This document shows positions 40,539 through 58,285 of a stretch of 64,000 bases of DNA, one piece after another. The stretch is taken from the NCBI GenBank assembly GCA_900208305.1, contig OAPG01000021.1, positions 455,522 to 519,521 of the forward strand, in the 5' to 3' direction. Positions within the stretch are counted from its first letter, which is position 1, and every line of letters starts with the position of its first letter. The notes beneath the pieces are model-generated. The model made no database searches. It saw nothing but the letters and a program-made list of their open reading frames with translations, and was not told the origin of the DNA. The position numbers and the translations under genes were made by a program. The DNA comes from Melanopsichium pennsylvanicum. Taxonomy: Eukaryota > Basidiomycota > Ustilaginomycetes > Ustilaginales.

Positions 40539-41558
40539 CGTGAAGCAAAGAGTCACGGCTTGAAAAGAAGGCACGGTTGACTGAGCGTTGAGAGGGGTGC
40601 AGAGTGAACCACTATTGATGTTGTGTCGTGTCAGTTCGAATATTGACAATAACTTGAACTTAAGGAACGCCGGCCACAGAAAGAATGAGACGCCGATCAG
40701 CGATGAAGAGGCTCCAAAAATATGGAAAGGAATGGGAAAATGTGGGATGTCGTCGACGGTACTAATGCTCCAGCCGTGTACGATGAAGGCGTTGGTAGAG
40801 ATATGGAAGGCTGTGTTGGATTGGTGGAAGCTACTGGATTACTTGTTCTTGAGTTCCTGTCGCCCAGGTGTGAGTGAGACGCGCGGAGTGCGAACAAACG
40901 AGCGAGACGGCGGAAGATGGGGTCGAATGATGAATGTTTATGACAATTCCAGGTAAAAGGGAGGAGATGGATGGTGTGAGAGTAAATAGAGATGTAGTTT
41001 TAGAGACGGATTGACATTTGACTGGAATTTTGCAAATGCACTTTTGGGGTCTGGATAGCCCGGCATGAGACACGAGGTCAAGAGACAAGACAGGAGGCGG
41101 CAGTACTGTAGTGAACCAACGTGGTTGCTGCTGCCAGCTGAGTTTGCAAAAGACATCTTTAATGGCGCGAAGCACTTTGGCCCTGTCCCTCTGTCTCACT
41201 TGAACAGAAATCGACGCTGCTCGGCACAGAAAAATGTGTTTGAATCGCGTCAATCATCCCTGCGCCATGCGGTTGTGCTGTCGGATCAGTGTTGGCTGGG
41301 CTCCTCGGAATTCAGGCCCTCAGAAATTCCCTGTAATTGGATCGCTTGTCGCACGCGCCTCTGTAATTCAATAATCAATCATCAAGCCACATATGGTAGC
41401 TTCTGTAACCCTAACTTTGGACACATATGGACAGTACAACAATCAAACATCAGGATGCATGCTAACTCTGGACAAAATTGGGCACCGCTTACAGGTGTGG
41501 CAGGTTCAATGCATGGCCCTTGGCAGCCAACAGAGCTGATGCAGGATGATATGGTCAA
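40539..41558. other. intergenic, left flank of retrotransposon E1
   Basis: No gene supported. The last ~180 bp (41380-41558) have a base texture unlike the preceding spacer and may belong to an older sequence that continues at 49195-49397 and after 58290, having been split by the two retrotransposons. Confidence 0.4.
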
Positions 41559-41988
41559 TGTTAAGGCTGTAGGGTCTAGATACCGCGGGCGGCTACAGCC
41601 GGGATGGAGGCTACGGGTACGGAGAGGTCGTAGGCGGGGCGACACAGGCGGTCGGGGGTCAGAGCACACTACTGCGTTGCTATAGAGCTAACTAAGTAAT
41701 ACATGCGACAAGGTCCGGAGGCAACCTCATGTCAGGCGGGGGCGGGGTGGTAAGGTACAGGAACTATCGGTCACTTCCCACCGCGGCGTTGCAATGTTAG
41801 GTTGCCAACGGTCGTATCCTACGTACGGAGGGGCCAGCCGCGGTTGGGCGGTAGGAGGGTCGTGTCAGGCCGACCGCTCCGCTGCGAGGGGTCCGGAGAG
41901 GGTCGGTCGGGGCCTGATCACGACGATCGCTCAATCGGGAGGGGGGCCGAGCACCCCCTCTTTGGACTCCGGTTGGTAGGCACTAACA
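41559..41988 (-). repeat. E1 3' LTR
   Basis: 430 bp, TGTTA...TAACA. It pairs with 48765-49194 with no length difference. Being at the pol-distal side of a minus-strand element, this is the 3' LTR. Confidence 0.95.
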
Positions 41989-41999
41989 TTACCCCCCGG
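41989..41999 (-). other. E1 polypurine tract
   Basis: On the minus strand this reads CCGGGGGGTAA immediately before the 3' LTR, the position expected for the plus-strand DNA primer in reverse transcription. Confidence 0.7.
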
Positions 42000-42220
42000 T
42001 TCAGGCCGACTGGTCCCCAGGCGGCTGATAGGACAGGAGGGCGAGGGGGGTCGTACTCCCTCAACCTTAATCTGCGCCAGGGGCGCCTCTCTGTACAAGT
42101 TGCGACGCTCGTCTCGGCAATTTAATCGCGGATGCGCAGCAATGAGGCAATACCACCCACAATGCCTTGGACCGGCGGAATTGACTGTGCGCCATTGCTC
42201 GTGCGTAGCTATCAAGGAGG

Positions 42221-42227
42221 GATATAA
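42221..42227 (+). promoter_or_regulatory. TATA-like box of the E1 antisense gene
   Basis: GATATAAGGA on the plus strand, about 70 bp before the first ATG (42296) of the antisense gene and followed by a C/T-rich leader. Function inferred from position only. Confidence 0.45.
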
Positions 42228-42295
42228 GGATGGGGTTCGACGGGTCTTCCTTCTCGATTTCCCCCATTCTTCCCCATTCTCTTTTTTTTTTCGCA

Positions 42296-43746
42296 ATGTC
42301 GTCGCCACCAGCAGACGCTTCCTTGGATTGTCTTTTTTTTGCAATGTCGTCGTCACCAGTAGACGCTTCCTTCCCCGGCCGACAACCCGTCGGCCGGTGT
42401 CAGTACCGTTCCCCCTCCATCGCCTACGTCCGCGACGGCGGCAGCGTCGGCAACAGCAGCAGCAGCAACAACAACAACAGCACCAACAACAACAACAACG
42501 TTACCCGCTTCCGGAGGTGAGTTGATTGTGGTTCCCTCGTGATTCGGTTGCGGATGGGGGGCCCAGAGGGCCTGACAACCACCGGTCGGTGCCGTGGAAT
42601 GGGTTACTGACGTTTGTTCCCTCCCCCTTGTTTCGATTACAACAGATCGGCCGTCGGAGACCTCCGCTGGTCCCATCCGGGGGGTGCGCCGTTCTCCGCG
42701 TGCTCACCTTTCCCGGGGGGCCAACTCGGGCCGTCGCGAGCGCGCCGTGCGTCAACAGTCTGCCGATCCGTCGGCCATTCCTTCCTCTGCATCGACCAAC
42801 ACTTCCCTCGTCCTGGCGCCCCGGAATTCGATGCCGTGGTCGCGTCCTTCGGTTCCCATCGAGATCACTCCGGAACTCGTTGGTGATGGTAAGTATTTGT
42901 TCCATTGTTGTGTTGATTGGGATCGCTACTGACGTTTGTGTTTCCGTGGCCAATACGACAGACCTTGCCCTGCTATGGGCCGAGACGTGGGGCGATTGCT
43001 ACGGCTGCGTATGCGCCGGCGTTGCCTGTGAGCGGGCGGGAGGCGATCTCCGCTGCCGTCGGTGTCAGGGGCAGCACGGGCAACCCTGCGACGCGGATAT
43101 GCGCGGTAAGTATTTCCATCGGGCGTCTGTTGCGATGTCCTGGGTGGTCGGCTGACTCTTGTTCCTCCTTTTGTTTTCCTCGACAGTCCCACCACTTGGC
43201 GGCGCCCAAGGTCCCCTCCAAATGAGGGTTTACGCATGCTTGCTTGAGAGGTGGAGGTCCGGAGGGGTTGGTCGGCGTCGCCGCCCCCACCCCAACGTCA
43301 GGTTGTCGCTGAGGACACTTGGCAAGATCCCGGAGGAGGAGGAGGAACTGAGGGAGGAGGTGGCTCGGGTGGGCGCGGTGGGTCGGGAGCGGGAGGCGGC
43401 TCGCAAGCGAGCTAGGTCTCGCCCCGACCGTCCAGCCGAGGCTGCCCGAGAGCGGCGTCGCACTTGGGCGCGGGCCCAAGGCTAGCCGGGGGAGTCCGCT
43501 ACGGGCCTGGGGGACCTGGGTGCGGCCGTAAGGCGTGCCGAGTCCCTCTTCCACGGGGTGCAGGAGGGGACTGAGTTATTTCAACAGGGGCTGGCCGACG
43601 TGGCTGCGCTGTTGCTGACAGAGTCGCTGAGGACCGGCGGCGAGCGAGAGCTCCGCCGGATCAGCGAGATCCAGCAACTGTCGCAGAACACGCGACAGCA
43701 GGTGGACGTGGTCTGGGCGTGGTTGGAGGGCTTCCTGAGGGACTAG
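42296..43746 (+). pseudogene. E1 antisense accessory gene, spliced, zinc-cluster-like protein
   Basis: Plus strand, opposite to gag-pol, between pol and the 3' LTR. Four exons can be traced with consistent phase: exon 1 ending 42516 (donor GTGAGT), exon 2 42646-42888, exon 3 42962-43105, exon 4 from 43187. All later donors are GTAAGT, and each intron has a CTGAC branch site before a pyrimidine-rich acceptor. The protein has a Thr/Ala/Pro-rich start, a basic VRRSPRAHLSRG segment, then six Cys in exon 3 spaced CX2CX6CX8CX2CX7C (CYGC to QPC), and a Glu/Arg-rich coiled-coil-like tail. This copy is damaged: the two ATGs (42296, 42344) are out of frame with exon 1's good frame, and TAG at 43483-43485 precedes a same-frame continuation to 43746. 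No function is known to me. A DNA- or RNA-binding role is a guess from the Cys pattern. Confidence 0.68.
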
Positions 43747-43929
43747 CCCCGGGGCCCCTCCTCGAATGCACTTGTTTTCTTTTCTGTCGCTTGCGTGTGT
43801 GTGTGTCCGTGTGTGGGAGTGGGGGTGAGGGGAGCCCGACCGGGTCTCCTACCCCAGAGGTCGGGGACCGGAGGGGTTTTGGCTCCGGCGGGGGGGTCTC
43901 CCGACGGCGACCGTCGCTCGTATCCGTGC

Positions 43930-46900
43930 CTAACGCCGGGTAGGGGCCGGCTTGGTCGGGTTTGCGGCGTGGTACGCAGCGACCAGATCCGGGGCGCGGT
44001 CCACGTCTTCCGCCGGGACCCAGCTTGGGGGGTACCCTACCCAGGAGACCTTGTACTGTAGGCGTCCGGCGCGGCGGCGGGAGTCCAATACGCCCTCGAC
44101 TTCGAAATCGGCGTAGTCGTCCTCCAGAGTAGTCGGTTGGGGGGCGTCGCTGGACTCCCTGACTCCGTCGGGGTATGGCTCCAGCATCTGTACGTGAAAG
44201 ACGGGATGGACCTTCCACGACGGAGGCAGGAGGAGTCGGTAGGCTCGGTCGCTAATCACCTCGTTGACTTTGAACGGGCCGGCGAGGGGGTTGGAGAGCT
44301 TGTGGGAGGGTCGGTCGCTGCGGAGGTGCTTGGTACGGAGGAGCACCAGGTCCCCCCGGCGGAACGAGACGTCGCTCCTGCGACAGTTAAACCACTTCGC
44401 GACGGCAAGGTTGGCTTTGGCGATGGCGTCCTGGCACACCCGCACTTTATCCGCCGACGGAACGTTGGAGGTGGCCGGGGGGATGGAGGGGTGTGCCCGA
44501 GGTGCAAATGTGAAGCAAGCTATAGCCGGGGCGATGGTTGTGGTCGCCGACGGTCTTTGGTTCAGCGCGAGCTGGGCTGTCGGCAGGAGGGTTGCCGAGT
44601 CGCTGTGGTCGTAGGCCGTATAGAAGCGGAGGAACAACTCCAGCGTCTGGTTGGCTCGCTCGGTCTGGCCATTTGTTTGAGGGTGGTAGGCCGACGAGTA
44701 AGACCCTTTAATCCGGAGGGCCCGGAGGAGTTCCGTCCAAACGGAAGCTACAAACGTGGTTCCTCGGTCAGATACAATGGTGTCCGGGAGGCCAAAGTAT
44801 GAAAAGACGTAGCGGTGGAGCTGGTACGCCAAAGTCTCCGCCGTATCGGTTTTGTTTGCAGGAATGAAGACCACAAACTTGGTGAGGCGGTCGACGACTA
44901 CGAGAATGGAGTTGTAGGTGGTGCCGTTGGCAAGGGAGGGCGGGAGGTCAGTGATGTGGTCCATGGTAATAGTGGACCACGGCCGATCGGGAGGGACCGA
45001 CGGGAGAAGGTAGCCGTGGGGTTTGTGACGGGGGTGTTTTGCCCTTCGGCAGGCCGCGCAAGAGGCGACATAGCTGTCGGTGTCCTGCGCCATGGTTGGC
45101 CAGTAAAAACGTTGACGCATGAGATGGAGGGTCGTCTTGCGGCCAGGATGTCCCGCCGTAGGGTGGTCGTGCAGTAGGTGGAGTGCCTTGTCCCGTAATT
45201 GGGGTGGCAGGTAGACGTGACCCTCTGTGGTGTACGGGACACCATCGCGGACGGCAACGTTTGGGGGGAGGTTGGCCGCTTTCTGGAGGGTTTCGATCCA
45301 CTCCGTAGGCAGGGGGTCCGAGGAGTGTACGCCGGCTGCCCTTGCAAACAAGTTTGCAGGGAGGAGAGTGGCTTGGTTGGCGGGGTCTGGGCGCAACGGT
45401 CCGTCGGGGAACAAGTCGTGCCGGCGACTCAGAGCGTCGGGGCGGACGGCCTCCTTACCCGGATGGTAGTGAAGGACGAAGTCGAACTCAGCCAGGTCGG
45501 CTTGCCAGCGGGCTTGGCGACGGTTGAGTTGTCGCTTCGTCTGAAAATACTGGAGCGCCTGGTGGTCGGTGTAAATGAGGAACGGTCGGGTGAGGCCATG
45601 GAGGTAGTGTCTCCAAGCGCCGCAGGCGTCTACGATAGCCAGGAGTTCCTTGTCGTGGATTTCGTAGTTACGCTCCGCCGGGATCATCTTTTGCGACCAG
45701 TATGCCACAGGATGGAGGGTATGCAAGCGGCTGTTGGGCTCGGCGCTCGCGTCGGCGCCCGGCTGTGGGTGCCACTGCGACAGCACGGCGGCTATCACAG
45801 CATCGCTCGCGTCTGTTTTGACGACGGTGTAGAGCGTTGGAGAGAAGTGCCGGAGGATAGGGGCAGAGGTGAACGCTTCTTTCAGCCGGTTGAAGGCTGC
45901 CGTTGCTTCCGGGGGCAGATCTACCTTTCCGGAGGCTCCTCCTTTCAGGAGGTTGGTGAGGGGGGCCGCTACACGAGAATAGTGGCGGATGAAGCGACGG
46001 TAGAAGTTGGCGAATCCGAGGAAGACTTGGATCTGTCGGATTGACTGTGGTGGCGGCCACTCCAAGACTGTACTGACCTTGGTCGGGTCCATGGAGAGGC
46101 CGTCGGGACTGACGAGGTAGCCGAGGAACTCGACGGAGTCGGTGTGGAATTCGCATTTGTCCGGAGCGCAATACAGCTGATGCTTCCGTAATCGATCCAA
46201 CACTTGGCAGACGTGGTGGTGGTGGTCGGCCTCGTTGTCGGAGAAGACTAGGATGTCGTCCAGATATACGATGACGGACACGTCTAAGAGATCCGACAGC
46301 ACGTGGTTCATGAGCCGTTGGAAGGTCGCCGGAGCGTTGCAGAGGCCAAACGGCATGACGAGGTATTCGTAGCTGCCGTAGCGCGTGCGGAATGCGGTCT
46401 TCCATTCGTGGCCGGGGGCGATCCGGAGGAGGTTGTAGGCACCCTTCAGGTCGAATTTAGTGAAGATCTTGGCCGTCGCCAGCCGATCAAGGTGTTCGGA
46501 GATGAGGGGGATTGGGTAGCGATCCTTGACGGTGATGGCGTTGAGGGCGCGGTAGTCCACACACGGCCGGAGGCGACCGTCCTTCTTTGGTACAAAAAGG
46601 AGGGGCGCGGCAGCTTGGCTACTCGACGGTCGGATGAAGCCAATGGCCTGCATCTTCCGGAGGTAGTTCCGGAGCTCCTCTTGTTCGCGGTGCAACAGGG
46701 AGTAGAGTGCGCCGTAGGGAGGGGTTTTGCCAGCCTCCAGGTTGATCTCGTGGTCGTGTGGGCGGTGGGGAGGCAATTGGTCGGCCCTCTCGGCGTCGAA
46801 GACGTTGGCGTACTTGCGGTACTCTGGCAGTAGGACGGCAAGGTCGGTCGCGGAAGCTCGGAGGGGCAGTAGCTCCTCTTCCGGTTCTGGGAGGACCAGC

Positions 46901-47493
46901 AGGTCCTCCTCGGTGGAGACCAGCTGTTGCCGGCCGACCAAGTTGTGGAGTTCGTTCTTTTTGATTTTGGGGTTGGAGGGCACCGTGACGGTGTGGGGGA
47001 CCCGGAGGTCCCACGTACGGAGGGTATAGTTTGGCTCCGGCCTGGCGGCCTCGATCCAATCCATCCCCAACAGCACGTCGTGGGAGGTCATGGGGGTGAT
47101 GAAGAGTTGGTGGCGTGAGGTGATGCAGTGGTTGTTGATGATGATATCCACCGCCGCGTGGCGACTGATGGCGGCCGACATGCCCTGGAGGAATGTGGCG
47201 TGGACGGATTTACGGAGGGAGTGGGTAGGAATGTTGGCCGTTGCGACCATTTCGGGAGTAATGAAAGAGGCGGTGGCGCCGGTATCGAGCAAGGCAAGGC
47301 CTTGCGTGTCGCCGACGCTTACCAAGCATTTGTAGGTTGGTAAGGTAGGGTGTCGATGGATCCGGAGAACGGATCCCTCTTGCTCCACAACGGGAGTGTC
47401 GGTCCGGTGGGCTGCCCAGAATGCTGCGGCGAGCACCCGGAGCTGGCTTAGGTTGTCGATGGGTTCGGACCGAAGGAACCCATCGACCCTTAG
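43930..47493 (-). CDS. pol: E1 pol polyprotein
   Basis: Minus-strand frame open from the gag end to 43930, about 1180 codons, in the -1 frame relative to gag. Numbering from 47436: aspartic protease motif LLDTGATASF near residue 50; RT with VPKKDGRLRPCVDYRALN and the active-site YLDD near 391; RNase H (KTDASDAVIA, YTDHQALQYF); integrase zinc-binding H-H-C-C (about 755-800), then catalytic Asp in TMDHI (826), Asp in VSDRG (885) and Glu in HPQTNGQTERANQ (917). A C-terminal chromodomain (about 1105-1160) contains YKVSWVGYPPSWVPAEDV. No internal stop was seen, so this looks like a potentially active enzyme set. There is no ATG at the start of the pol frame, so expression must follow gag by frameshifting. 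Confidence 0.93.
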   Translation of the reverse strand, partial: LRVDGFLRSEPIDNLSQLRVLAAAFWAAHRTDTPVVEQEGSVLRIHRHPTLPTYKCLVSVGDTQGLALLDTGATASFITPEMVATANIPTHSLRKSVHATFLQGMSAAISRHAAVDIIINNHCITSRHQLFITPMTSHDVLLGMDWIEAARPEPNYTLRTWDLRVPHTVTVPSNPKIKKNELHNLVGRQQLVSTEEDLLVLPEPEEELLPLRASATDLAVLLPEYRKYANVFDAERADQLPPHRPHDHEINLEAGKTPPYGALYSLLHREQEELRNYLRKMQAIGFIRPSSSQAAAPLLFVPKKDGRLRPCVDYRALNAITVKDRYPIPLISEHLDRLATAKIFTKFDLKGAYNLLRIAPGHEWKTAFRTRYGSYEYLVMPFGLCNAPATFQRLMNHVLSDLLDVSVIVYLDDILVFSDNEADHHHHVCQVLDRLRKHQLYCAPDKCEFHTDSVEFLGYLVSPDGLSMDPTKVSTVLEWPPPQSIRQIQVFLGFANFYRRFIRHYSRVAAPLTNLLKGGASGKVDLPPEATAAFNRLKEAFTSAPILRHFSPTLYTVVKTDASDAVIAAVLSQWHPQPGADASAEPNSRLHTLHPVAYWSQKMIPAERNYEIHDKELLAIVDACGAWRHYLHGLTRPFLIYTDHQALQYFQTKRQLNRRQARWQADLAEFDFVLHYHPGKEAVRPDALSRRHDLFPDGPLRPDPANQATLLPANLFARAAGVHSSDPLPTEWIETLQKAANLPPNVAVRDGVPYTTEGHVYLPPQLRDKALHLLHDHPTAGHPGRKTTLHLMRQRFYWPTMAQDTDSYVASCAACRRAKHPRHKPHGYLLPSVPPDRPWSTITMDHITDLPPSLANGTTYNSILVVVDRLTKFVVFIPANKTDTAETLAYQLHRYVFSYFGLPDTIVSDRGTTFVASVWTELLRALRIKGSYSSAYHPQTNGQTERANQTLELFLRFYTAYDHSDSATLLPTAQLALNQRPSATTTIAPAIACFTFAPRAHPSIPPATSNVPSADKVRVCQDAIAKANLAVAKWFNCRRSDVSFRRGDLVLLRTKHLRSDRPSHKLSNPLAGPFKVNEVISDRAYRLLLPPSWKVHPVFHVQMLEPYPDGVRESSDAPQPTTLEDDYADFEVEGVLDSRRRAGRLQYKVSWVGYPPSWVPAEDVDRAPDLVAAYHAANPTKPAPTRR

Positions 47494-48725
47494 TTTCCCT
47501 CTGGGGGATCCTCCGAATCCGATAGGTCACTGTCGGGGTTGGAGGCTGACCCGTCATCCATGGGGTTGACGAGTATAGTCCCGGAATCGTTGTCGAATGA
47601 AATGGCATGTGCCCGGAGAGTTTGTGTTTGGGGCGCCTTCGGGCAGTCACGGGCCAAATGGTCGCTGCCACCGCAGCCGAAGCACTGCCCGTTGGTCCGT
47701 CGGTGCTGGCGGAGGCGTTCCGCCGCATCACGCGTAGGGTCCTTGGCCGGTAGTGGAGGTCGTTCCATTTTGCGGGGTCCCTCCGGGGGCTCTCGTTTGG
47801 CCGTCACGGCTGGGAGGGGCGGTCGGTGTCGCAGCTGTGACTCCGCGGGTCTTGTCGTGGCCTCCTGTATCACCTGCATCCGGCGCTCCGTGACAATGGC
47901 GGCGTTGATGAAGTTACGGATGTCGGTCATCGGCACATGGGTGAGCTTTTCCCGTAGGCGCGGCCGGAGGCTTTGTTCAAACAGCATCAACACCTGCTGC
48001 TGGTCGGTCAGGTGCGATTTGGCCGTCAGCGACATGAACTCCGCCGCGTGCTCCAATACTGATCCCTTCTGGCGGAGGGCATTCAGTTGGAGGTGTGCGG
48101 TGTAGCTGGGGTCGGGATCGCCATGGACGCAACGGAGGTCGGCGCAGAAGGCCCTCCAGGAGCTCATCCAGGGCGGATCCTCCCCCTCCTGTTGTCGCAC
48201 ATTGCGAATGCGGGTTCGTGGTTTGCCCGTCATGTTGCCGATGGCAAACGTGATGCGACGGGCATCCGTCGGGAACTTGGAGGGATTAGCCTCGAAGTTG
48301 AGTTCGCATTGATCCAAGAAGTCCTCCAGTTTGTCTTGGCTGCCGTCCCATTCCGGAGCCTGGAGTCGAATCTCTGGCTCGCGGGGCGCGGCCTCCACGT
48401 AGACGGGGGCTACGGTTGGCGGGGGGACCTGGGCAGCGGTTGCTCCTTGGTAGTGCTGAGAAGACTCCGGTCTAGGTTGATCCTCCCTGGGGAAGAAGGC
48501 GGCCTCTAGCAGAGCGGTAATGTGCCGCTGTTGTTCAGAGGTTTCACGCAGAAGCGCCAGGATATCCACTTGCCCTTGGACCAAGGTGGTCAGGGCGGCG
48601 GGCGGTTTGCCCGAGGGTGCAACAACGCTGGCGGGCTTGTCTCCGCTGGGGGAGATGGTGGGAGCGTCTCCCTCCGCTTGGGGGGAGGCGTCCGTTTGGT
48701 TTCGTCGGTTGGAGCGTGTACTCAT
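47490..48725 (-). CDS. gag: E1 gag
   Basis: 411 residues, from ATG 48725, about 40 bp inside the 5' LTR boundary. Contains a capsid-like helical region in the middle (WDGSQDKLEDFLDQCELNFE, then a retroviral gag-like stretch) and a CCHC zinc knuckle CFGCGGSDHLARDC near the C-terminus for nucleic-acid binding. The last codons GGA AAC followed by TAA form part of a slippery heptamer. The frame extends upstream into the LTR without ATG, so 48725 is preferred. Confidence 0.9.
   Translation of the reverse strand: MSTRSNRRNQTDASPQAEGDAPTISPSGDKPASVVAPSGKPPAALTTLVQGQVDILALLRETSEQQRHITALLEAAFFPREDQPRPESSQHYQGATAAQVPPPTVAPVYVEAAPREPEIRLQAPEWDGSQDKLEDFLDQCELNFEANPSKFPTDARRITFAIGNMTGKPRTRIRNVRQQEGEDPPWMSSWRAFCADLRCVHGDPDPSYTAHLQLNALRQKGSVLEHAAEFMSLTAKSHLTDQQQVLMLFEQSLRPRLREKLTHVPMTDIRNFINAAIVTERRMQVIQEATTRPAESQLRHRPPLPAVTAKREPPEGPRKMERPPLPAKDPTRDAAERLRQHRRTNGQCFGCGGSDHLARDCPKAPQTQTLRAHAISFDNDSGTILVNPMDDGSASNPDSDLSDSEDPPEGN
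47493..47499 (-). promoter_or_regulatory. -1 ribosomal frameshift site between E1 gag and pol
   Basis: The minus strand reads G GGA AAC TAA in gag frame. GGGAAAC is a canonical X-XXY-YYZ heptamer, placed directly before the gag stop. Slipping back one base continues as CTA AGG GTC in the open pol frame, exactly as required. Confidence 0.7.
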
Positions 48726-48753
48726 CTTGGTTACAACGTCGTCCCGTGGGGAG

Positions 48754-48764
48754 GTCGCATGTAA
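48754..48764 (-). other. E1 primer-binding site, self-priming type
   Basis: The minus strand reads TTACATGCGAC right after the 5' LTR. Ten of its 11 bases are complementary to GTCGCATGTA inside the LTR (48906-48915 on the plus strand as TACATGCGAC). This resembles Tf1, in which the transcript's own 5' end primes reverse transcription. No tRNA 3' end match was sought by computation. Confidence 0.6.
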
Positions 48765-49194
48765 TGTTAAGGCTGTAGGGTCTAGATACCGCGGGCGGCT
48801 ACAGCCGGGATGGAGGCTACGGGTACGGAGAGGTCGTAGGCGGGGCGACACAGGCGGTCGGGGGTCAGAGCACACTACTGCGTTGCTATAGAGCTAACTA
48901 AGTAATACATGCGACGAGGTCCGGAGGCAACCTCATGTCAGGCGGGGGCGGGGTGGTAAGGTACAGGAACTATCGGTCACTTCCCACCGCGGCGTTACAA
49001 TGTTAGGTTGCCGACGGTCGTATCCTACGTACGGAGGGGCCAGCCGCGGTTGGGCGGTAGGAGGATTGTGTCAGGCCGACCGCTCCGCTGCGAGGGGTCC
49101 GGAGAGGGTCGGTCGGGGCCCAATCACGACGATTGCTCAATCGGGAGGGGGGCCGAGCACCCCCTCTTTGGACTCCGATTGGTAGGCACTAACA
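48765..49194 (-). repeat. E1 5' LTR
   Basis: 430 bp, TGTTA...TAACA, pol-proximal copy. The sequence complementary to the primer-binding site (48906-48915) may mark the transcript start. Confidence 0.95.
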
Positions 49195-49397
49195 TGATGG
49201 CTACAGTGCTGATTCTGTTGCCACAGTTGAGGTTCTGCCTACAGTTGAAGCACTGCAGTGTCAGCAGAGGTGCTGACAATTGTTGGTGGTGTTGAACTCC
49301 TTCAGATGAGGAGGTCACAGACACTGGGATGCTGCAATACCATATATTTGCAGTGGTTGAAAATTTACTAGATATAGAGACATTGGAAACAAGTTGT
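49195..49397. other. short segment between the two retrotransposons
   Basis: 203 bp of moderate GC, unlike either element, ending with GTTGT, which is the left target duplication of E2. Probably part of an older sequence split by both insertions. Confidence 0.5.
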
Positions 49398-49607
49398 TGT
49401 CACGGGAGTGGGTCCCAAGGAAGAGGTCTGCGCAGACCAGAGATGTTGAATCGGCTGAGATCCGGTGGGAGAGCATGTCTCGACGGATCTCAGGGAGATC
49501 TGGTGGATATTGGTGGGCTCATGGGATTTAAGGTTAGCGCAGAACCGAGAAGTTGAATCGGACAAAATCCGGTGAGAGAGCAGGTCTCAACGGATCTCAC
49601 GGAAATT

Positions 49608-49630
49608 CGGCGAGTGGCAGTGACTCGCCG
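49608..49630. repeat. hairpin micro-repeat in E2 LTR
   Basis: CGGCGAGT, 7-base loop, ACTCGCCG. A second hairpin, TGAGATCCG / CGGATCTCA, lies at 49456-49492. Both are repeated in the 3' LTR. Confidence 0.7.
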
Positions 49631-49853
49631 GATATCGAAGGTATCGATGGCAAGGGGAGCATCTGCGACGGCGGCGACCAACGCCAGCCGGAGCGACACG
49701 TGGGCCGACCGACGCCCAGGGGGCAACGGAGAGAGAGCACGCGGGCGTGCTCGGAAGCACCCTGCCGAAGGACTAGGGGCAGTCTTATCGTGCGGGGGTC
49801 CAAGCTCAACGCACGCAGGTTGCACAGTACCGATGGACCTTGCACACGATACA

Positions 49854-49865
49854 TATATATAAATA
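49854..49865 (+). promoter_or_regulatory. E2 LTR TATA box
   Basis: TATATATAAATA in the LTR, about 40 bp upstream of 49899-49908 (ATCCACTCTA), the LTR stretch complementary to the primer-binding site and thus the expected 5' end of the self-priming transcript. The spacing is suitable for a TATA-directed start. Confidence 0.7.
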
Positions 49866-50406
49866 CTCTTGTCCCCGCTATCGGATGAGCGGAAGCTCAT
49901 CCACTCTATCTTATATCTCAGTCACACATAGTTATCAGTACGTCGTACTTATCATACTCTTCACACGTCGCACATCGCAATACCATTCATTGCGATCCAT
50001 ATAGTCTGTGTCCCCGTCGGTGAACGGAGAACAACGTATAGACGTCGTCGGCACCACAATCGACGCTGTAGCACCTCAACTACAGGCGGAACCTCAACCG
50101 CGGGCCTGGCACCACAACCAGTCCCTCATAACTCCACCGGCAACGACGGCTGAGGTCTAACCCAGCCATCAGCAGTATCCCGTCGACGTCGTGACACTCG
50201 CGTCGACCGAGTACCCCGTCCGAGCTTGCCGCGTTACCTCTGTACGGAGTGTCACCAGCGGTCAGCCAATATCCGTCGAGAGATCGCCACTCGCGGGATT
50301 CTCTTCGATATCCGTTGAGGCCAAGCTTAACCGCCGGAATTCACTGGAATCCGGCGAGTCGCGCTTTCTCACGGGAATTCGGATCTCTGGCACGCGACCG
50401 CTGACA

Positions 50407-50417
50407 TTAGAGTGGAT
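50407..50417 (+). other. E2 primer-binding site, self-priming type
   Basis: TTAGAGTGGAT immediately follows the 5' LTR. Ten of its bases pair with ATCCACTCTA at 49899-49908. The mismatch position (11th base) is the same as in E1, supporting a common mechanism. Confidence 0.65.
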
Positions 50418-50446
50418 CGTACAAGCGACGCCCCAAGTTCACCAAG

Positions 50447-51817
50447 ATGGCCGACTCTGCACTACATGACAGACTCGACCGCCTCATCGCCCTCCTTGAG
50501 CAGCAGCAGGTAGACAATGCCGCACTCAAGGCTTGGCTCGACCAACAGGAGACTCCATCCCCTGGTCGACGAGCTAGGGAGCATGATCTAAGCTCCCCGA
50601 CCCGTCGAGCCTCGCAGCAGGCGGATGAGTCCTACCTCGGTGGTCTCGAGACACCCACTCCTGCGACTAGACCACACCCTCGGTCCGTCACCTTCGACAT
50701 TCTCGACCGACGAGTGTACACCGACCAAGAAAAGTACGCTACGCCTACTGGACCTCGGTATGCCAAACCGGTGACCCCGGGGGCATGGACCGGCACTGGC
50801 AGTGAACAGGACACTCAGCCCCACGCTGCCCTCAAGACTCCATTCCCCAAGCTCGACACTCGCGACATCAATATCTTCATTCTTGAGGCCGACGCTTGGT
50901 TCAAGGCTAATGGTGTGTACGACCATACTTCGATGATCCTACACACGGCAGCTCAGCTCGAGGGCACCGCTCGAGAGTGGTGGAAGGGTAAGCTCCGCGT
51001 CGACCGGCATCGTCAAGGGATGCTCTTCCATGATTGGAGCCACTTCACCACTCGACTCAGGGAGCTGTACAATCAGCGCAGCGACAGGGTCGATGCCTAC
51101 AACAAACTCCTAGCGTTGAGGCTTATTACCGACACACCAGGAGCAGCAACGCAACATGTCGAGCAATTCCAAGACCTGGCAGCTCAGTGCCACATGGAGG
51201 ACCCTGAGTTTGTCATCGACCTCTTCCAAGGGAGCCTTACTCGCTCACTTCAGGAAAAGTTCGAGAGTAACCCACCTGAAGACCAGTGGGCCTGGTACCG
51301 GGAGGTCGAGGACATTGATCGCCAGCGTATGCGGCATCAGCAGAATGCTGTCCGCTTCGCCTCAACCCCAGCAATCAGGACTGCTCATACCGAACCGGGC
51401 ATTCCCCAGAGAACTGGCTCTCGACCGTTGCCCCCTCATCTGGCACAGAAGCTGCCGGTACGGGAAGCACCACCGAGACCTCGCGACGACCAAAGGGTCG
51501 TCCCCGGCCCGACGACATTTAACAGCGACGCTTGTAGGGTCTGCGGCAAGACCGGGCATTGGCAGCGGAACTGTCCAGACGCCAAGCCAACGGTTTACCC
51601 GGCTAGACCATCAGGACCACAGATGCGAGCGCACGTGGTGTTGGAGTCGGAGAAACCACAGGACGGCTCACCAGAGGAAGGAGACGGAGCTGAAGACCAT
51701 CGCGAAGACGATGGCGGTCTTGAAGACCACTTTGACCCCAACCTCTTTGCCGACGATCACGACGCAGGCGAGCCCTACCACGAGGACGAGGGAAACAACC
51801 TTGGAGCGATGCAATGA
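50447..51817 (+). CDS. gag: E2 gag
   Basis: 456 residues from ATG 50447, 40 bp after the LTR. The capsid-like region spans about residues 140-290 (DINIFILEADAWFKANGV, REWWKGKLRVDRHR), the CCHC knuckle is CRVCGKTGHWQRNC near residue 365, and the tail is highly acidic. The stop TGA overlaps the first ATG of pol as ATGA. Intact. Confidence 0.9.
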   Translation: MADSALHDRLDRLIALLEQQQVDNAALKAWLDQQETPSPGRRAREHDLSSPTRRASQQADESYLGGLETPTPATRPHPRSVTFDILDRRVYTDQEKYATPTGPRYAKPVTPGAWTGTGSEQDTQPHAALKTPFPKLDTRDINIFILEADAWFKANGVYDHTSMILHTAAQLEGTAREWWKGKLRVDRHRQGMLFHDWSHFTTRLRELYNQRSDRVDAYNKLLALRLITDTPGAATQHVEQFQDLAAQCHMEDPEFVIDLFQGSLTRSLQEKFESNPPEDQWAWYREVEDIDRQRMRHQQNAVRFASTPAIRTAHTEPGIPQRTGSRPLPPHLAQKLPVREAPPRPRDDQRVVPGPTTFNSDACRVCGKTGHWQRNCPDAKPTVYPARPSGPQMRAHVVLESEKPQDGSPEEGDGAEDHREDDGGLEDHFDPNLFADDHDAGEPYHEDEGNNLGAMQ

Positions 51818-52273
51818 TGGCATGCATCGCTCTAAGACCGCCTTCGCCATCACCTTGTATATGTCAAGATTGTTCATTATGTTTCTCTGCAGCTTCCGGT
51901 GCCTCAGTACTCGAGCTAGCAGGTACGGTCAACCACCATCCTGCTAGCATTCTCGCCGACACCGGCGCTGCATTGTCTATAGTTTCAGCTCCGTTTGTTC
52001 GCAAGTACTCGATAACCACAAAACCCATAAAAAACAGAACCGTACACGGAGTGACCGGACATTCCCTCACGATCACGAGCGCTGCGGACGTCGACGTAGT
52101 CATAGGAGGACAACACCTAGGGATGCTCAAGGTCGCCGTCGCCGACGCCAGCGACTACGATTTCATCCTGGGGTACGATGAACTACGACGCCTACAGCCA
52201 AGGGTCCATTGGGATACTGGACAGCTCGATTTCGGAAAACCCAACGAGATCCGGTCAGACGCGGTCGTTCAAG

Positions 52274-52290
52274 GGATTTCACCGAAATCC
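52274..52290. repeat. hairpin micro-repeat inside E2 pol (protease-RT linker)
   Basis: GGATTTC, three bases, GAAATCC, followed by GCCGAG. The same unit recurs at 55732-55748 and, in diverged form, at 54002 and in the LTR. It lies at about pol residue 153, in the linker between protease and RT. Confidence 0.6.
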
Positions 52291-53978
52291 GCCGAGACCG
52301 GCCGATCTGCCGAATCTCGAGCAAACTTAGTAGTACATGGCTACGAGTTCGTCGACGCCAACGAGCTCGTTCAGGCGGCACTACGGGATGGCCCCATAGG
52401 GGTCATGCTAATCAGCGCTCCTCCGACGTCGCTCCCGTCGTTTGGCTTTGTTCCCACGGGAGGCGACAAAGGCATAGAGATGGAAACGACACTAGAAGAG
52501 CCTCCCACTGCCGTCGACATCCCAGCCCTGTACTACCCCCTCAAGGATGTATTCGACGAGATCGAAGCGGACAAGCTTCCCCCTCACACGAAGCACAACT
52601 TGCACATCGAGCTACTACCCAGTTCGACGCCACCTCAAGGTCCGCTATATCTCAAGGGCCCTAAGGAGATGGCCGAGCTGAGGAAGTACCTCGAAGAGAA
52701 TCTCGAGAAAGGATTCATTTGGCCCTCAAAGAGCCCGGCGCGATCACCCATCCTTTTCGTGCCTAAGAAGGACGGCGGCCTGCGACTCTGCGTAGACTAC
52801 CGCGGTCTCAACGAGGTCACGGTCAAGAACCGAGCTCCACTGCCCTTAATCAAGGAGCAGCTGTTCCTCTTACAAAAAGTGAAGATCTATACCAAGCTGG
52901 ACCTAAAGGCGGCATACAACTTGGTTAGGATCGCCGACGGGGACGAATGGAAAACCACGTTTGGAACTCAACTCGGACTGTATGAGTATCTGGTCATGCC
53001 ATTCGGATTGGCAAATGCGCCCGCGCACTTCCAATCGCTCATCAACACCATCTACCGCAACATCATTGGAGTATACGTGGTAGTATACCTTGACGACTTC
53101 CTGATCTTCAGCGATAACGAGAAGGAACACATCGAGCACGTCAGGACGGTGCTCAGTAGGCTCAAGGTATGGCGGTTATTCGCCAAACTCTCAAAGTGCG
53201 TGTTCCATACCGATACTGTTGAGTTCCTCGGCTACATCATCAAGCCGTCAGGTATCGAGATGGACCCCAACAAGATCAGGACTATCAAGGAATGGCCGAT
53301 GCCGGAGTCTATACACGACATCCAACGCTTCCTCGGGTTCGCCAACTTCTATCGCAGATTCATCTCTCACTTTGCACGTATAGCGAGACCGCTCACTTCC
53401 CTTGTTAAGCCCACAGAGCGATTCAAGAAGTTCAACCTCCCTGACGACGCTCGCGCTGCTTTCCACAAGCTGGTGGAAATGTTCACCACCGCTGGGGTTC
53501 TCAAACACTTCGATTACCATCATCCTACCCGGTTGGAAACGGACGCAAGCGACTTTGCCCTCGCTGGAGTACTCAAACAAGAGCACGACGGACGATGGCA
53601 CCCAATAGCATTCTACTCGCGTAAGATGGCATCGGCGGAGAAGAACTACAAGATCCATGACAAGGAACTCCTCGCTGTTGTCGTCTGTCTCAACCACTGG
53701 CGGCACATGCTTGCAGGACTACCTAGTCAGCTCATTATTCTCACTGATCACAAGGCGCTCAAATACTTTAAGTCGCAGCGGAAGATCACAGGTCGGCAGG
53801 CTCGATGGTCAGTGTTGCTCGCTGACTTCGACTTCGTACTCCAATACAGACCGGGAGATAAAGCGGGAGAGCCAGATGCGTTAACACGACAAAGTGATAT
53901 GCAACCGACCGCAGAAGAAGACCTACACAACGTCCGACAGCTGTTACCGGCACAAGTATTTGCCAAGGATTTCGAAAA

Positions 53979-54003
53979 CCGCCGAGTGGACTCAACTCGG
54001 CGG
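53979..54003. repeat. hairpin micro-repeat inside E2 pol (RNase H-integrase linker)
   Basis: A 9-bp perfect inverted repeat, CCGCCGAGT / ACTCGGCGG, with a 7-base loop. The LTR hairpin at 49608-49630 has nearly the same arms and the same loop size. It falls at about pol residue 722, between RNase H and integrase. Confidence 0.65.
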
Positions 54004-55731
54004 ATTTCACCAAAATTCCCCAAGAAAGAGCTACTCGCCGAATCTCAAATAAATATGCTAAAGCCAACGATGTCCGATATCACGGAGGGAGGGCTGGTCC
54101 AACTCGTAAAGACTTTCCAGCCGCTCGATGCCGAGCTCGCAGAGCTTCATCAGAAGCAACCTTTCAAAGTTAGACATGGCCTGTGGTATTGCGACGGTCG
54201 GCTAGTGGTGCCGCGAGTCACATTACCAGGTAAGAAAGGTCAACGCAACACTTGGAGTGCCGCCGAAGCAAAGGATCGCTCGCTCTCGGTGGAGCACCTG
54301 AGATACATGGTAATGTCCCAATGCCACGACGGCGCTACCGCTGGCCATGCAGGTCAAGACGCCACCCTCGAGCTCACAAGGCGGCATTATTGGTGGCCAA
54401 ATATGGCGGCATGGGTTGCTGACTATGTAGCAAGCTGCCCAGTGTGCGCTCGATATAAAGCACTGCGACACCGACCATATGGCCTTTTGCAGCCGCTGTC
54501 GACGCCGTCAAGACCCTGGAATTCCATCTCGATGGATTTCATTGAAGGGTTACCTAAATCGGAGGGGTATGACTCGATCTTTGTAGTGGTCGACCGGTTG
54601 ACCAAATATGCCATCTTAACCCCAACGTACAAGACAATAACGTCGGAGCAGACGGCAAAGATGCTCAAAGACCAAGTTATGTCCCGTTTTGGGGTACCGG
54701 AGCACATTGTCTCAGACCGCGGCCGACAATTCGTCTCGGCGGCATGGAAAGAGTTCACCGACAAGCTGGTCATCCACCACTCGCTCAGCACAGCCTACCA
54801 CCCACAGACGGACGGGCAAACGGAGCAAGTCAATCAAGTTGTCAAGCAGTACCTCCGTATGTACTGCAACTACGAGCAGGACAACTGGGTAACCTGGCTG
54901 CCGATGGCCGAGTTTGTTTACAACAACACGGTCCACAGCAGCATAGGGGTCTCGCCTTTCTTTGCTTGCTACGGGTGGAATCCAAAATCACACCCCGATC
55001 TCCCAGAACAAGTCGGTGTGCTCGACCCCAAGAGGAAAGAGTTTGCCACCCGAAGAAAAGAATTTACGGCGTATCTACAGGAGCAAATCAGGTACGCTCA
55101 AAGCCAAACCGTTGAGCAATATAACCGCAAACGAAAGGACATCGAGTTCAAAGTTGGAGACATGGTCTACGTCAACTGAAAGAACTGGAAGACAGCTCGA
55201 CCCAGTCCCAAACTCGACACAAGGTTAGCAGGCCCGTTCCCCATCCTTGAACGAATTGGCAGAAGAGCATACCGGCTCCAACTCCCAGCAAGTTTGCGCG
55301 TACACAACGTTTTCCATGTCTTGATGCTCGAGCCTCAAAGGGCGAGCTCACTCCCACAGCGCTCCACACTCGAAGTCACGCCGCCCCTACCGGACAACAC
55401 TCTAGAATTTGAGGTAGAGGCTATTGTGGGAAAGCGAAAACAGGGTAGGCAAGTGCAGTACAAAGTCCAATGGAGGGGCTACCCCGAGGAGGCAGCCTCG
55501 TGGGAACCGACAGACTGTCTCAACTGCCCAGACCTCATCCGGGAGTATGAGGAATCGGCGGGGGGACGGAGACACTAAGCTGAAGAGGATCTTGCGAGCC
55601 GCGATGCATGCCATCACAGGAGAGTAAGATGGCGAGAAGCTCGACAAGGACGAAGCTCGACAAGGACGATGTCGAGCGGCGAAGGTAGAAGGTTGCAGGA
55701 ATCGAGATCCGGACAATGACCCTGACTCAGG

Positions 55732-55748
55732 GGATTTCCACGAAATCC
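55732..55748. repeat. hairpin micro-repeat downstream of E2 pol
   Basis: GGATTTC, three bases, GAAATCC, followed by GCCAAG: the noncoding counterpart of the unit at 52274-52290. Confidence 0.6.
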
Positions 55749-56015
55749 GCCAAGTACTGCAGAATTCAACGGATCTCAGAGAAAAAATTAAAAAAAATCG
55801 CGGGGGTAACGAGAACCTAAAAGTCACGAAATTTGCCGAGGAATGCATGATCCAAAGGATCTCAGGCCTTAATGGGCGACGCGAGTTGACAAGTATATTT
55901 CTCAGAGTTGTCGCACCTGTTGCACATCGGAAGTCACACAATCAAGCTCACACTAGGTTCAATGGGTAACGAGGCACTGCCATTGCAACAAGTCGACACA
56001 GCCAGCGGGCACAGA

Positions 56016-57175
56016 CTACTCCGCCGACTCGGGGGCTGACGAAGGCCCAGGCACCGAAGAAGGCTCGAGAGCCTCGAATGGCGAGCGCATAGACCGCACT
56101 CGCCGCTGACGATTGAAGTACTCCTTGATCATCGTCAGCACCGGGACTCGCCGACTACGAGGCGAGGCAGACCAAATGATGCGCATTGCATACGCCCAGT
56201 GGGGGTCCGCCACACCATCCGAGTCACGGTCGATCCCACGTACCTCTCCCAATCCTCGACCTCCCGCTCCCGTGACGTGAGCTCGCTCGACGCCACGCTC
56301 GCCTCGATGCAGATGGCGAGTAGGAGCGTCGCCAGCGTATACCGTCGTTGGCAACGCCCTCACAGTTCGCACGCACTTCTTGTGGCCGCCAAGATGGCAG
56401 TGCACACAAGCGCGCGGAGTCCTGCCCTTGCCACCGGCAGAAAGTACGTCAGCAAAAGCCGACGCAAAACAACTGGGACAAAAAAAGGGGAGAACCACGG
56501 TCAGCAATGCGTATCGAATGGACAGCAAGTATCGAACGGAGAAGGGGGCAGTAGTACTTACGGTATACCAAGCTTCGCGCATCGGGCGCATTGCCAGCTC
56601 GGCCAAGGCATGCAGCCCTCGGTCAGTCAAAGGAGGACCAGACGATGCAGCTGACCGGCCGTCACGGAACCCTCCAATACCTCCCAAGTAGGGGGCCAGG
56701 CCTCGCACGCCACGAATACCAGCAACACCAGAGCAATAAAAGACTCCGCCCACAGCGCGATCTCAAGGTAGTTTGGCACACGAGGCCCAACGAGCAGAGC
56801 GACAGGGTCCTCCCCGGCCTTGCTAACCCTCCCCACAACTGACTCCTCCACCTCCATTGCCTCCAGCCGCTCCTCCTCCTCCCCCGTGGCATCGTTCCCC
56901 AGGAACAACGGTTCTAGTGGTCGCGGCGTCAACCGCAACGCAACGAGCTGCTCGGCAGCAACAATTTCGAGAGGCTGCTCGCCAGCAGCAGAGGACAACG
57001 TAGCTGTGGCCTCGAGGCCGACAGCCAAAGGGGTTGCCACTGCCCGAGCGGCAGGGTTTCGTTCACGAAGCCTGGCGCTACGGCGCACAGGCTCTTCTGC
57101 CCGGAGGGCAGGCATTTGTGTCGACGCTGGTCGCAATGACGCAGCGGAAGGGGCAGTGTTCGAGGTGCTCGACAT
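56016..57175 (-). pseudogene. E2 antisense accessory gene, spliced, zinc-cluster-like protein
   Basis: Minus strand, opposite to gag-pol, between pol and the 3' LTR. Exon 1 is 57175-56562 and exon 2 is 56472-56016. The 89-bp intron has donor GTAAGT, branch TGCTGACC and acceptor CCCAG in phase 2. The joined frame has 357 codons with a single TGA at 56629-56627. Features: Ser/Ala-rich start MSSTSNTAPSAAS; basic VRRSARLRERNP; an acidic run (GEEEERLEAMEVEE); a hydrophobic helix (FIALVLLVFVACEAW); then six Cys spaced CX2CX6CX20CX2CX7C, with the intron just before the third Cys; and a basic C-terminal half. Basic segment and Cys spacing match the E1 antisense gene. The TGA reads as CGA with C changed to T. 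An alternative frame with a stop-free shift was considered, but only this frame joins correctly across the intron. Confidence 0.7.
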
Positions 57176-57234
57176 TTTGACGGTTTGGGGAACGCTGTTG
57201 GTGGAAGAACAAGTTGGGGAAACACCCGCCGACC

Positions 57235-57242
57235 CTATTTAA
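57235..57242 (-). promoter_or_regulatory. TATA-like box of the E2 antisense gene
   Basis: The minus strand reads TTAAATAG about 60 bp before the ATG at 57175 and about 35 bp inside the 3' LTR boundary. Position resembles that of the E1 antisense gene. Confidence 0.45.
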
Positions 57243-57264
57243 GCCTCAACGGAGCTCGGCTCTC

Positions 57265-57277
57265 AAAGGGGGGGTAG
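57265..57277 (+). other. E2 polypurine tract
   Basis: AAAGGGGGGGTAG immediately before the 3' LTR, the expected primer for second-strand DNA synthesis. Confidence 0.8.
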
Positions 57278-58285
57278 TGTCACGGGAGTGGGTCCCAAGG
57301 AAGAGGTCTGCGCAGACCAGAGATGTTGAATTGGCTGAGATCCGGTGGGAGAGCATGTCTCGACGGATCTCAGGGAGATCTGGTGGATATTGGTGGGCTC
57401 ATGGGATTTAAGGTTAGCGCAGAACCGAGAAGTTGAATCGGACAAAATCCGGTGAGAGAGCAGGTCTCAACGGATCTCACGGAAATTTGGCGAGTGGCAG
57501 TGACTCGCCGGATATCGAAGGTATCGATGGCAAGGGGAGCATCTGCGACGGCGGCGACCAACGCCAGCCGGAGCGACACGTGGGCCGACCGACGCCCAGG
57601 GGGCAACGGAGAGAGAGCACGCGGGCGTGCTCGGAAGCACCCTGCCGAAGGACTAGGGGCAGTCTTATCGTGCGGGGGTCCAAGCTCAACGCACGCAGGT
57701 TGCACAGTACCGATGGACCTCGCACACGATACATATATATAAATACTCTTGTCCCCGCTATCGGATGAGCGGAAGCTCATCCACTCTATCTTATATCTCA
57801 GTCACACATAGTTATCAGTACGTCGTACTTATCATACTCTTCACACGTCGCACATCGCAATACCATTCATTGCGATCCATATAGTCTGTGTCCCCGTCGG
57901 TGAACAGAGAACAACATATAGACGTCGTCGACACCCCAATCGACGCTGTAGCACTACAACTACAGGCGGAACCTCAACCGCGGGCCTGGCACCACAACCA
58001 GTCCCTCATATCCCCACCAGCAACGACGGCTGAGGTCTAACCAGCCACCAGCAGTATCCCATCGACGTCGTGACACTCGCGTCGACCGAGTACCCCGTCC
58101 GAGCTTGCCGCGTTACCTCTGTACGGAGTGTCACCAGCGGTCAGCCAATATCCGTCGAGAGATCGCCACTCGCGGGATTCTCTTCGATATCCGTTGAGGC
58201 CAAGCTTAACTGCCGGAACTCACTGAAATCCGGCGAGTCGCGTTTTCTCACGGGAATTCGGATCTCTGGCACGCAACCGCTGACA
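57278..58285 (+). repeat. E2 3' LTR
   Basis: 1008 bp, flanked on the right by the GTTGT duplication. One base shorter than the 5' LTR because of a single C missing in a CCC run near 58042. Confidence 0.95.

Follow-up and report, generated by a model that had tools for sequence, protein, structure and literature searches.

The 64,000-nt stretch of Melanopsichium pennsylvanicum DNA analyzed here ("the window", positions 455,522 to 519,521 of GenBank contig OAPG01000021.1, contig C21 of a 21.1 Mb genome) carries two long terminal repeat (LTR) retrotransposons, E1 and E2. Both are chromoviruses (Ty3/gypsy) according to Pfam, with gag, protease, reverse transcriptase (RT), RNase H, integrase and Chromo domains, and across 1101 aligned positions their pol proteins share 39% identity. 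An original prediction made from these letters had described them as unlike elements and had proposed that each holds a spliced antisense gene for a Cys-cluster protein between pol and the 3′ LTR. Canonical splice sites and copy counts confirm such a gene in both elements. The window copies of the two antisense genes are themselves damaged, and intact copies lie elsewhere in the genome. The elements and their antisense genes are laid out as follows.

41559-49194, minus strand: E1, whole element, LTR to LTR
42221-42228, plus strand: TATA-like box GATATAAG of the E1 antisense gene, identical in 20 of 20 E1 copies examined; promoter role predicted
42296-42516, plus strand: E1 antisense exon 1, Ser/Ala/Thr-rich; small frameshifting deletion in the window copy
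42517-42645, plus strand: E1 antisense intron 1, 129 nt, GT..AG, CTGAC
42646-42888, plus strand: E1 antisense exon 2 with the basic segment VRRSPR, from copy comparison
42889-42961, plus strand: E1 antisense intron 2, 73 nt, GT..AG, CTGAC
42962-43105, plus strand: E1 antisense exon 3 with the Cys cluster, 144 nt, phase 1 on both sides
43187-43746, plus strand: E1 antisense exon 4, encoding the charged C-terminus; the window copy stops prematurely at 43483-43485, the family stop being at 43744-43746
49398-58285, plus strand: E2, whole element, LTR to LTR
57236-57242, minus strand: TATA-like box (TTAAATA) of the E2 antisense gene, between the polypurine tract and the ATG; the same in all 19 alignable copies; promoter role predicted
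56562-57175, minus strand: E2 antisense exon 1, which includes the VRRSAR segment and the first two Cys; the window copy has an in-frame stop at 56629-56627
56473-56561, minus strand: E2 antisense intron, 89 nt, GTAAGT..CAG, CTGAC with its A 29 nt from the end
56016-56472, minus strand: E2 antisense exon 2 with Cys 3 to Cys 6 and the C-terminal part; homologous stretch in a third family, E3, and in Ustilago proteins

The E1 gene thus has four exons, and its third intron measures 81 nt. Exon 3 has 44 matches in the genome, five of which are short fragments, and we read 20 of the 39 copies with this Cys exon (the window row plus L002-L020). A frame of 371-390 aa is open in 18 of them, the other two being L017, with the only premature stop in exon 4 among the 19 non-window copies, and the window copy, with its frameshift and premature stop; exon 1 is open from the ATG in the 19 other copies examined. 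One of the 18 open copies, L009, has lost the GT of intron 1, which leaves 17 copies with both frame and splice sites, and length changes among the 18 preserve the frame (e.g., a 16-codon duplication and a 3-codon indel). The E1 antisense protein is 77% identical to M. pennsylvanicum MEPE_05065 across the entire query. In four of the eight public models of E1 type (P0001-P0004) exon 2 runs straight into exon 4, so that the 144-nt Cys exon is left out; this reflects either mistaken gene prediction or a genuine cassette exon.

The E2 gene is organized in two exons (357 codons including the stop), with the intron immediately before Cys 3. From 37 matches, 21 copies were read and 19 were fully alignable (L037 and L040, with unalignable 5′ halves, were left out of the E2 counts), and the gene is free of stops in 13 of these 19. 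Exon indels among the 19 are multiples of three, and the leader varies while the TATA-like box does not. All six Cys codons are retained in 19 of 19 copies, as is every Cys of E1 exon 3 in the 20 copies read, so that the Cys conservation on which the original prediction depended holds in both families. The TATA-like boxes near the 3′ LTR and the VRRS-x-R segment that it had pointed out were likewise recovered in both genes.

Matches to these genes lie antisense and downstream of RT, within 6 kb, in 34 of 39 cases for E1, 34 of 37 for E2 and five of seven for E3 (short fragments, five among the 44 E1 matches and one among the 45 E2 matches, were omitted from this count), and every element with a full-length pol frame carries the gene in the E1-type (14/14) and E2-type (14/14) families. 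All five introns (three in E1, one each in E2 and E3) combine GT..AG ends with a CTGAC motif whose branch A lies 27-36 nt from the 3′ end. The GT..AG ends are retained in 19, 20 and 20 of 20 copies for the three E1 introns and in 19 of 19 for the E2 intron, and a CTRAY branch motif throughout the 20 copies at each E1 intron and in 18 of 19 copies at the E2 intron. We consider these intron signals the strongest sequence evidence that the antisense strand would be transcribed and spliced. When open segments of at least 40 residues in the six frames of the window (82,462 residues) were scanned for the Cys spacing with a loop of 5-24, the E1 cluster was the only unspliced match.

Using the C-terminal part of the E2 protein as query, we recovered seven matches (35-39% identity) in the third family, E3. 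One of these elements, L021, includes gag, a 1291-aa pol frame with a chromodomain and an antisense gene in the slot between pol and 3′ LTR, and its pol is 68% identical to that of E2. The E3 intron (71 nt) has the same position and phase as that of E2, at the junction between residues IP and CF, the proteins are 35% identical, and the E3 cluster reads CX2CX6C-18-CX2CX7C. We read five of the seven copies with the gene and five of the nine full-pol copies without it. Among the former, two (L022 and L025) are intact, while a premature stop interrupts L021, one Cys is missing from L024, and an internal deletion has removed Cys 1-3 from L023; three gene-bearing copies apparently share one common pol deletion of ~1.8 kb after RT. 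From the five gene-less copies the whole gene is gone, from near the ATG to past the stop, with a single common junction. Exact 17-nt repeats at this deletion were considered and rejected, the junctions sharing only a few bases. Two further observations concern E3 elements: a 53-bp unit is tandemly repeated (2.8 copies) within the 3′ LTR of L021 (7721-7871), and a gene-less E3-type element is apparently nested inside the antisense gene of an E1 copy (L048, G000:C8:497700-499500).

Related proteins were also found in other smuts. A profile of E2 and E3 retrieved 37 proteins at E ≤ 0.1 among the best 8000 candidates. Besides M. pennsylvanicum, E2/E3-type homologues came from four named smuts, Ustilago sp. 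UG-2017a, U. nuda, U. hordei and U. tritici, and from one ENA record, with E-values of 5e-56 to 6e-14 for the Ustilago matches and 34-42% identity between E2 and the Ustilago proteins. The homologues fall in clusters of up to 75 members, a size that fits a repeated element. E2 and the Ustilago proteins have in common the block LTEGCMPWPSWQCxxCxxLG..CFxSAF...ACxHCxLxxxxxC, which is recognisable in E3, and the Ustilago loop is 18 residues long. All six Cys are present in 11 of the 12 aligned proteins that span the full cluster; the last is missing from P0042, which looks mis-spliced in this stretch. The Ustilago proteins align across the E2/E3 intron junction, and the models P0043 and P0045 (Ustilago) and P0044 (ENA record) terminate precisely there. 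Sequence comparison thus identifies the E2, E3 and Ustilago genes as one homologous family, the Ustilago junction being deduced from protein models alone. A scan of viral contigs with the E2/E3/Ustilago alignment returned no relative. One 571-aa protein of Ustilago sp. UG-2017a (P0036, in a cluster of 15 members) combines an E2-type C-terminal half with ~250 N-terminal residues of unrelated sequence that match no Pfam family; it may be an artefact of gene modelling, or a host gene that has captured the element gene.

The E1 gene stands apart from this family. Among the same number of candidates, E1-type proteins were found in M. pennsylvanicum only, so that the search for homologues in other smuts proposed with the original prediction succeeded for the E2 type but not for the E1 type. 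Exon-intron layouts differ between E1 (four exons) and E2 (two exons), and when the E1 profile (built without L012, L017, L020 and the window row) was compared with that of E2/E3/Ustilago, hhalign returned a probability of 0.6%, i.e., no homology, by which a single gene family for E1 and E2 is rejected. To judge from these profiles, E1 carries a different gene from E2 and E3 in the same slot. The idea of an acquired and conserved component accordingly survives in part: such genes have been kept, and not by chance, as indicated by the copies, the splice and branch sites, the constraint on E2 described below, E3 and the other smuts, but the comparison does not support one component common to E1 and E2.

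Evolutionarily, the E2 gene is under purifying selection. The ratio of non-synonymous to synonymous polymorphism (pN/pS) across its 19 copies is 0.30 in the gene frame vs. 0.97 and 1.44 in the shifted frames, and 143 non-synonymous variants were observed where 197.6 were expected (0 of 5000 draws as low) under a null model that preserved mutation classes, CpG transitions included; these tests, like those on E1 below, used pairs or one chosen reference copy rather than a tree, and the copies are not independent. One sense-strand frame over the gene also gives a low ratio (0.43), as is to be expected with third positions facing each other, and the longest sense frames in this region (151 and 140 aa) do not span the whole gene. 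A chance open frame is ruled out by copy number, splice conservation and this constraint. The same results bear on a different explanation, in which the product that matters is an antisense RNA that anneals to the genomic RNA at its 3′ end, leading to RNA silencing or a block of sense transcription, the reading frame being incidental. The gene is indeed convergent with pol, and antisense RNA has been discussed as a possible regulator for plant elements (PMC7264820). However, the frame-specific constraint on E2, the in-frame indels, the shared intron phase and the 34-42% identity between E2 and Ustilago all need a selected protein, alongside which an RNA role could coexist, and we regard an RNA with an incidental frame as improbable.

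The Cys cluster itself agrees only partly with what had been proposed. The spacings are as claimed, with CX2CX6C-8-CX2CX7C in E1 and, once spliced, CX2CX6C-20-CX2CX7C in E2, but an extra Cys inside the first half gives E1 seven Cys rather than six. Fungal Zn2Cys6 proteins (PF00172) have the consensus spacing CX2CX6CX5-12CX2CX6-8C. The smut genes resemble them in having six Cys in two CX2CX6-7C halves, and E1 resembles them further through its loop of 8, which fits the consensus, followed by a charged C-terminal region; E1 differs in its seventh Cys and in having no basic residue between Cys 2 and Cys 3, and the loops of E2 (20) and of E3 and Ustilago (18) are too long. With the PF00172 (Zn_clus) model, E1 gave no hit and E2 at best 13.9 bits, for a cut-out piece, vs. 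a curated cut-off of 21 bits. Zn2Cys6 identity is thus rejected by Pfam score and, for E2, E3 and Ustilago, by loop length as well, even though the E1 spacing fits as had been predicted.

The remaining features of the two elements are the following.

41559-41988, minus strand: E1 3′ LTR, direct repeat of 48765-49194 (424 matches, 10 mismatches and 3 gaps in the aligned stretch)
43930-47436, minus strand: E1 pol (protease, RT, RNase H, integrase, chromodomain), from Pfam
47490-48725, minus strand: E1 gag (zinc knuckle), from Pfam
48765-49194, minus strand: E1 5′ LTR, from the direct repeat and edge reading
49398-50406, plus strand: E2 5′ LTR, from the direct repeat
50447-51817, plus strand: E2 gag, from Pfam
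51814-55572, plus strand: E2 pol, from Pfam; early frame stop at 55179 in the window copy, the piece 55180-55572 holding the chromodomain
57278-58285, plus strand: E2 3′ LTR (989 matches, 19 mismatches and 1 gap vs. the 5′ LTR)

E2 is flanked on both sides by the 5-bp target duplication GTTGT. Its pol frame in the window encodes 1121 aa up to the stop at 55179, vs. a 1280-aa frame in 14 other copies, and the chromodomain was found by a separate Pfam scan of the piece after this stop; the window copy of E2 is thus damaged on both strands. E1, by contrast, lacks such a duplication: the 5 bp at either end (41554-41558 and 49195-49199) do not match, which may reflect recombination between elements.

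Antisense genes of this general kind are known from other systems. In fungi, Zhao et al. in 2011 (cited in PMC8365987 and PMC4227169) reportedly described brtn as an antisense gene of Boty-like Ty3/gypsy elements in Botrytis cinerea. The view in the original prediction that no fungal Ty3/gypsy component of this sort had been described must therefore be withdrawn, since brtn of the Botrytis element Boty is described in PMC7264820. Boty-like elements combine gag-pol with a chromodomain (PMC4227169) and so resemble the smut elements as fungal chromodomain elements with an additional antisense gene, in an ascomycete rather than a smut host. No Botrytis protein was found among the matches to either smut family within the best 8000 candidates, a search in which the brtn sequence itself was not compared. 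In plants, the aORF-3R genes (GENE23 of Grande, RIRE2, TRP28 of Retand) are antisense, occupy the slot between pol and 3′ LTR and occur in the majority of copies. A promoter of its own and a nuclear product are reported for GENE23, and DNA binding is predicted for TRP28 (PMC7264820; PMC11963269). The main text of PMC11963269 does not use the term "intron". The smut genes share slot and orientation with these plant genes, whereas on presence in most copies they give a mixed picture, with the gene in 14 of 14 full-pol copies of E1 and of E2 and in one of ten of E3; the proteins are unlike the smut ones, and Retand belongs to a non-chromovirus lineage. A retroviral parallel is HBZ of human T-cell leukemia virus type 1 (HTLV-1), a spliced nuclear regulator and bZIP protein that tunes transcription of the virus. 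HBZ resembles the smut genes as an antisense gene near the 3′ LTR, and differs from them in that no bZIP match was obtained for the smut proteins. HBZ is described as antisense and nuclear (PMC11963269), and an antisense promoter of HTLV is placed in the 3′ LTR (PMC7264820). For smuts, the available parts of work on fungal and smut LTR elements (PMC3248453; PMC9603552) do not mention such a gene, and an open-access literature search by title and abstract start returned no description of one in a smut or other basidiomycete element.

Taking these results together, we lean towards an accessory regulator that acts in trans, probably in the nucleus, is driven by an antisense promoter of its own and is shared by E2, E3 and probably the Ustilago elements, with a different gene in E1. 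Conservation in related smuts points to a working accessory protein, probably a regulator, and a trans-acting, probably nuclear one is the most likely product because of the properties reported for GENE23, TRP28 and HBZ. Each chromovirus family would carry, or would once have carried, an accessory gene antisense in the slot between pol and 3′ LTR, tail-to-tail with pol. A predicted promoter immediately internal to the 3′ LTR (of TATA type in E1 and E2) would drive the accessory gene, which would be spliced as an ordinary fungal gene. Its introns would survive retrotransposition because they lie on the strand opposite to the genomic RNA. The protein, with a basic N-terminal motif and a probably metal-binding Cys cluster, might then bind DNA or chromatin at element copies in the nucleus and tune or de-repress their transcription, in the mode of HBZ and as suggested for the plant-element antisense proteins. 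E2, E3 and probably the Ustilago elements would have one gene by descent, and E1 a different gene in the same slot. Such action in trans would allow gene-less E3 copies and integrase-less, gene-bearing E3 copies both to multiply.

A more specific possibility is that the protein is an anti-silencing factor, which strips repressive marks in trans to the benefit of gene-less copies. In exons 2-4 of the E1 antisense gene (window row and L002-L020), 61 of 102 distinct variants relative to L004 are CpG transitions, which suggests methylated copies, with cytosine methylation or a process like repeat-induced point mutation acting on the elements. The multiplication of both gene-less and integrase-less E3 copies is also what a trans product allows. 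However, no observation distinguishes relief of silencing from transcriptional control of another kind or from carriage as a passenger, and we consider this narrower function unlikely.

Several results weigh against a nuclear regulator. The antisense proteins gave no Pfam family above cut-off, a search of solved structures found no relative, and the AlphaFold model of a Ustilago member is poor (mean pLDDT, the predicted local distance difference test, of 44.3), with ten-residue blocks reaching 64-81 only at residues 121-150 and 181-240, both of which precede the cluster. DNA binding is thus a guess, because there is no Pfam match, no solved relative and a poor model. Stops occur in six of the 19 E2 copies, and nonsense variants are not rarer than expected in E2 (6 vs. 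9.0, P = 0.17) or E1 (1 vs. 2.5, P = 0.25). For E1, pN/pS is 0.59, whereas gag reaches 0.37 in 14 copies and pol 0.39 in 11 (both from copies matching in one long piece), the 63 non-synonymous variants do not differ significantly from the 68.6 expected (P = 0.12), and the sense-strand frame that was low in E2 has nearly the same ratio (0.61), so that the ratio alone cannot single out the E1 gene frame. The test of selection across copies that the original prediction called for thus gives a clear signal in E2, but the E1 signal is weak, its copies being too alike to say more. In E3, no clear TATA-like box was seen upstream of the gene, and the gene went undetected in nine of the ten full-pol copies, the sole carrier, L021, having a premature stop. 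Related copies without the frame, which had been named as grounds for refutation, do occur here, and gene-less copies with full pol show that the E3 gene is dispensable in cis.

Some of these points would fit a captured host gene carried as a recent passenger through transposition bursts, with no function for the element: constraint on E1 is not significant within its recent burst, the gene went undetected in most full-pol E3 copies, and the E1 gene was found only in M. pennsylvanicum. The gene-less and pol-deleted E3 sublineages are compatible with a trans-acting product, and passenger carriage might account for them too. Against a passenger stand the constraint on E2, the fact that gene and intron position have persisted across E2, E3 and the homologues of four further named smuts, and the failure to identify a host paralogue outside elements, though no search was aimed at one. 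A mere passenger thus appears very unlikely to us, and a regulator acting in trans the better account.

While the kind of gene is already known (plants, Boty, HTLV), four aspects appear to be new as far as our literature search shows: a spliced, Cys-cluster version in smut elements; an intron position common to element families and, by protein models, to other smuts; the occupation of this slot by another, unrelated gene; and natural sublineages in which gene and integrase have come apart. It is tempting to speculate further, and with considerable doubt, that the slot has been filled at least twice independently by a spliced Cys-cluster nuclear regulator, an HBZ-like layer outside retroviruses, that E3 has split regulator and integrase onto mutually dependent lineages, and that the symmetric 48-codon exon of E1 could serve as a splicing switch for the cluster.

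For the function of antisense genes beside the 3′ LTR in retrotransposons, the smut genes offer a testable case, being spliced, selected in E2, related to genes in several smuts and present in tens of copies in a small genome, with the gene-less and integrase-less sublineages as ready natural comparisons. Transformation protocols have been published for Ustilago bromivora (PMC5106213), and since a related Ustilago can be transformed, regulation of retrotransposition by an antisense protein could be tested. More broadly, the presence of two unrelated genes in one slot hints that the slot itself may favour such genes.

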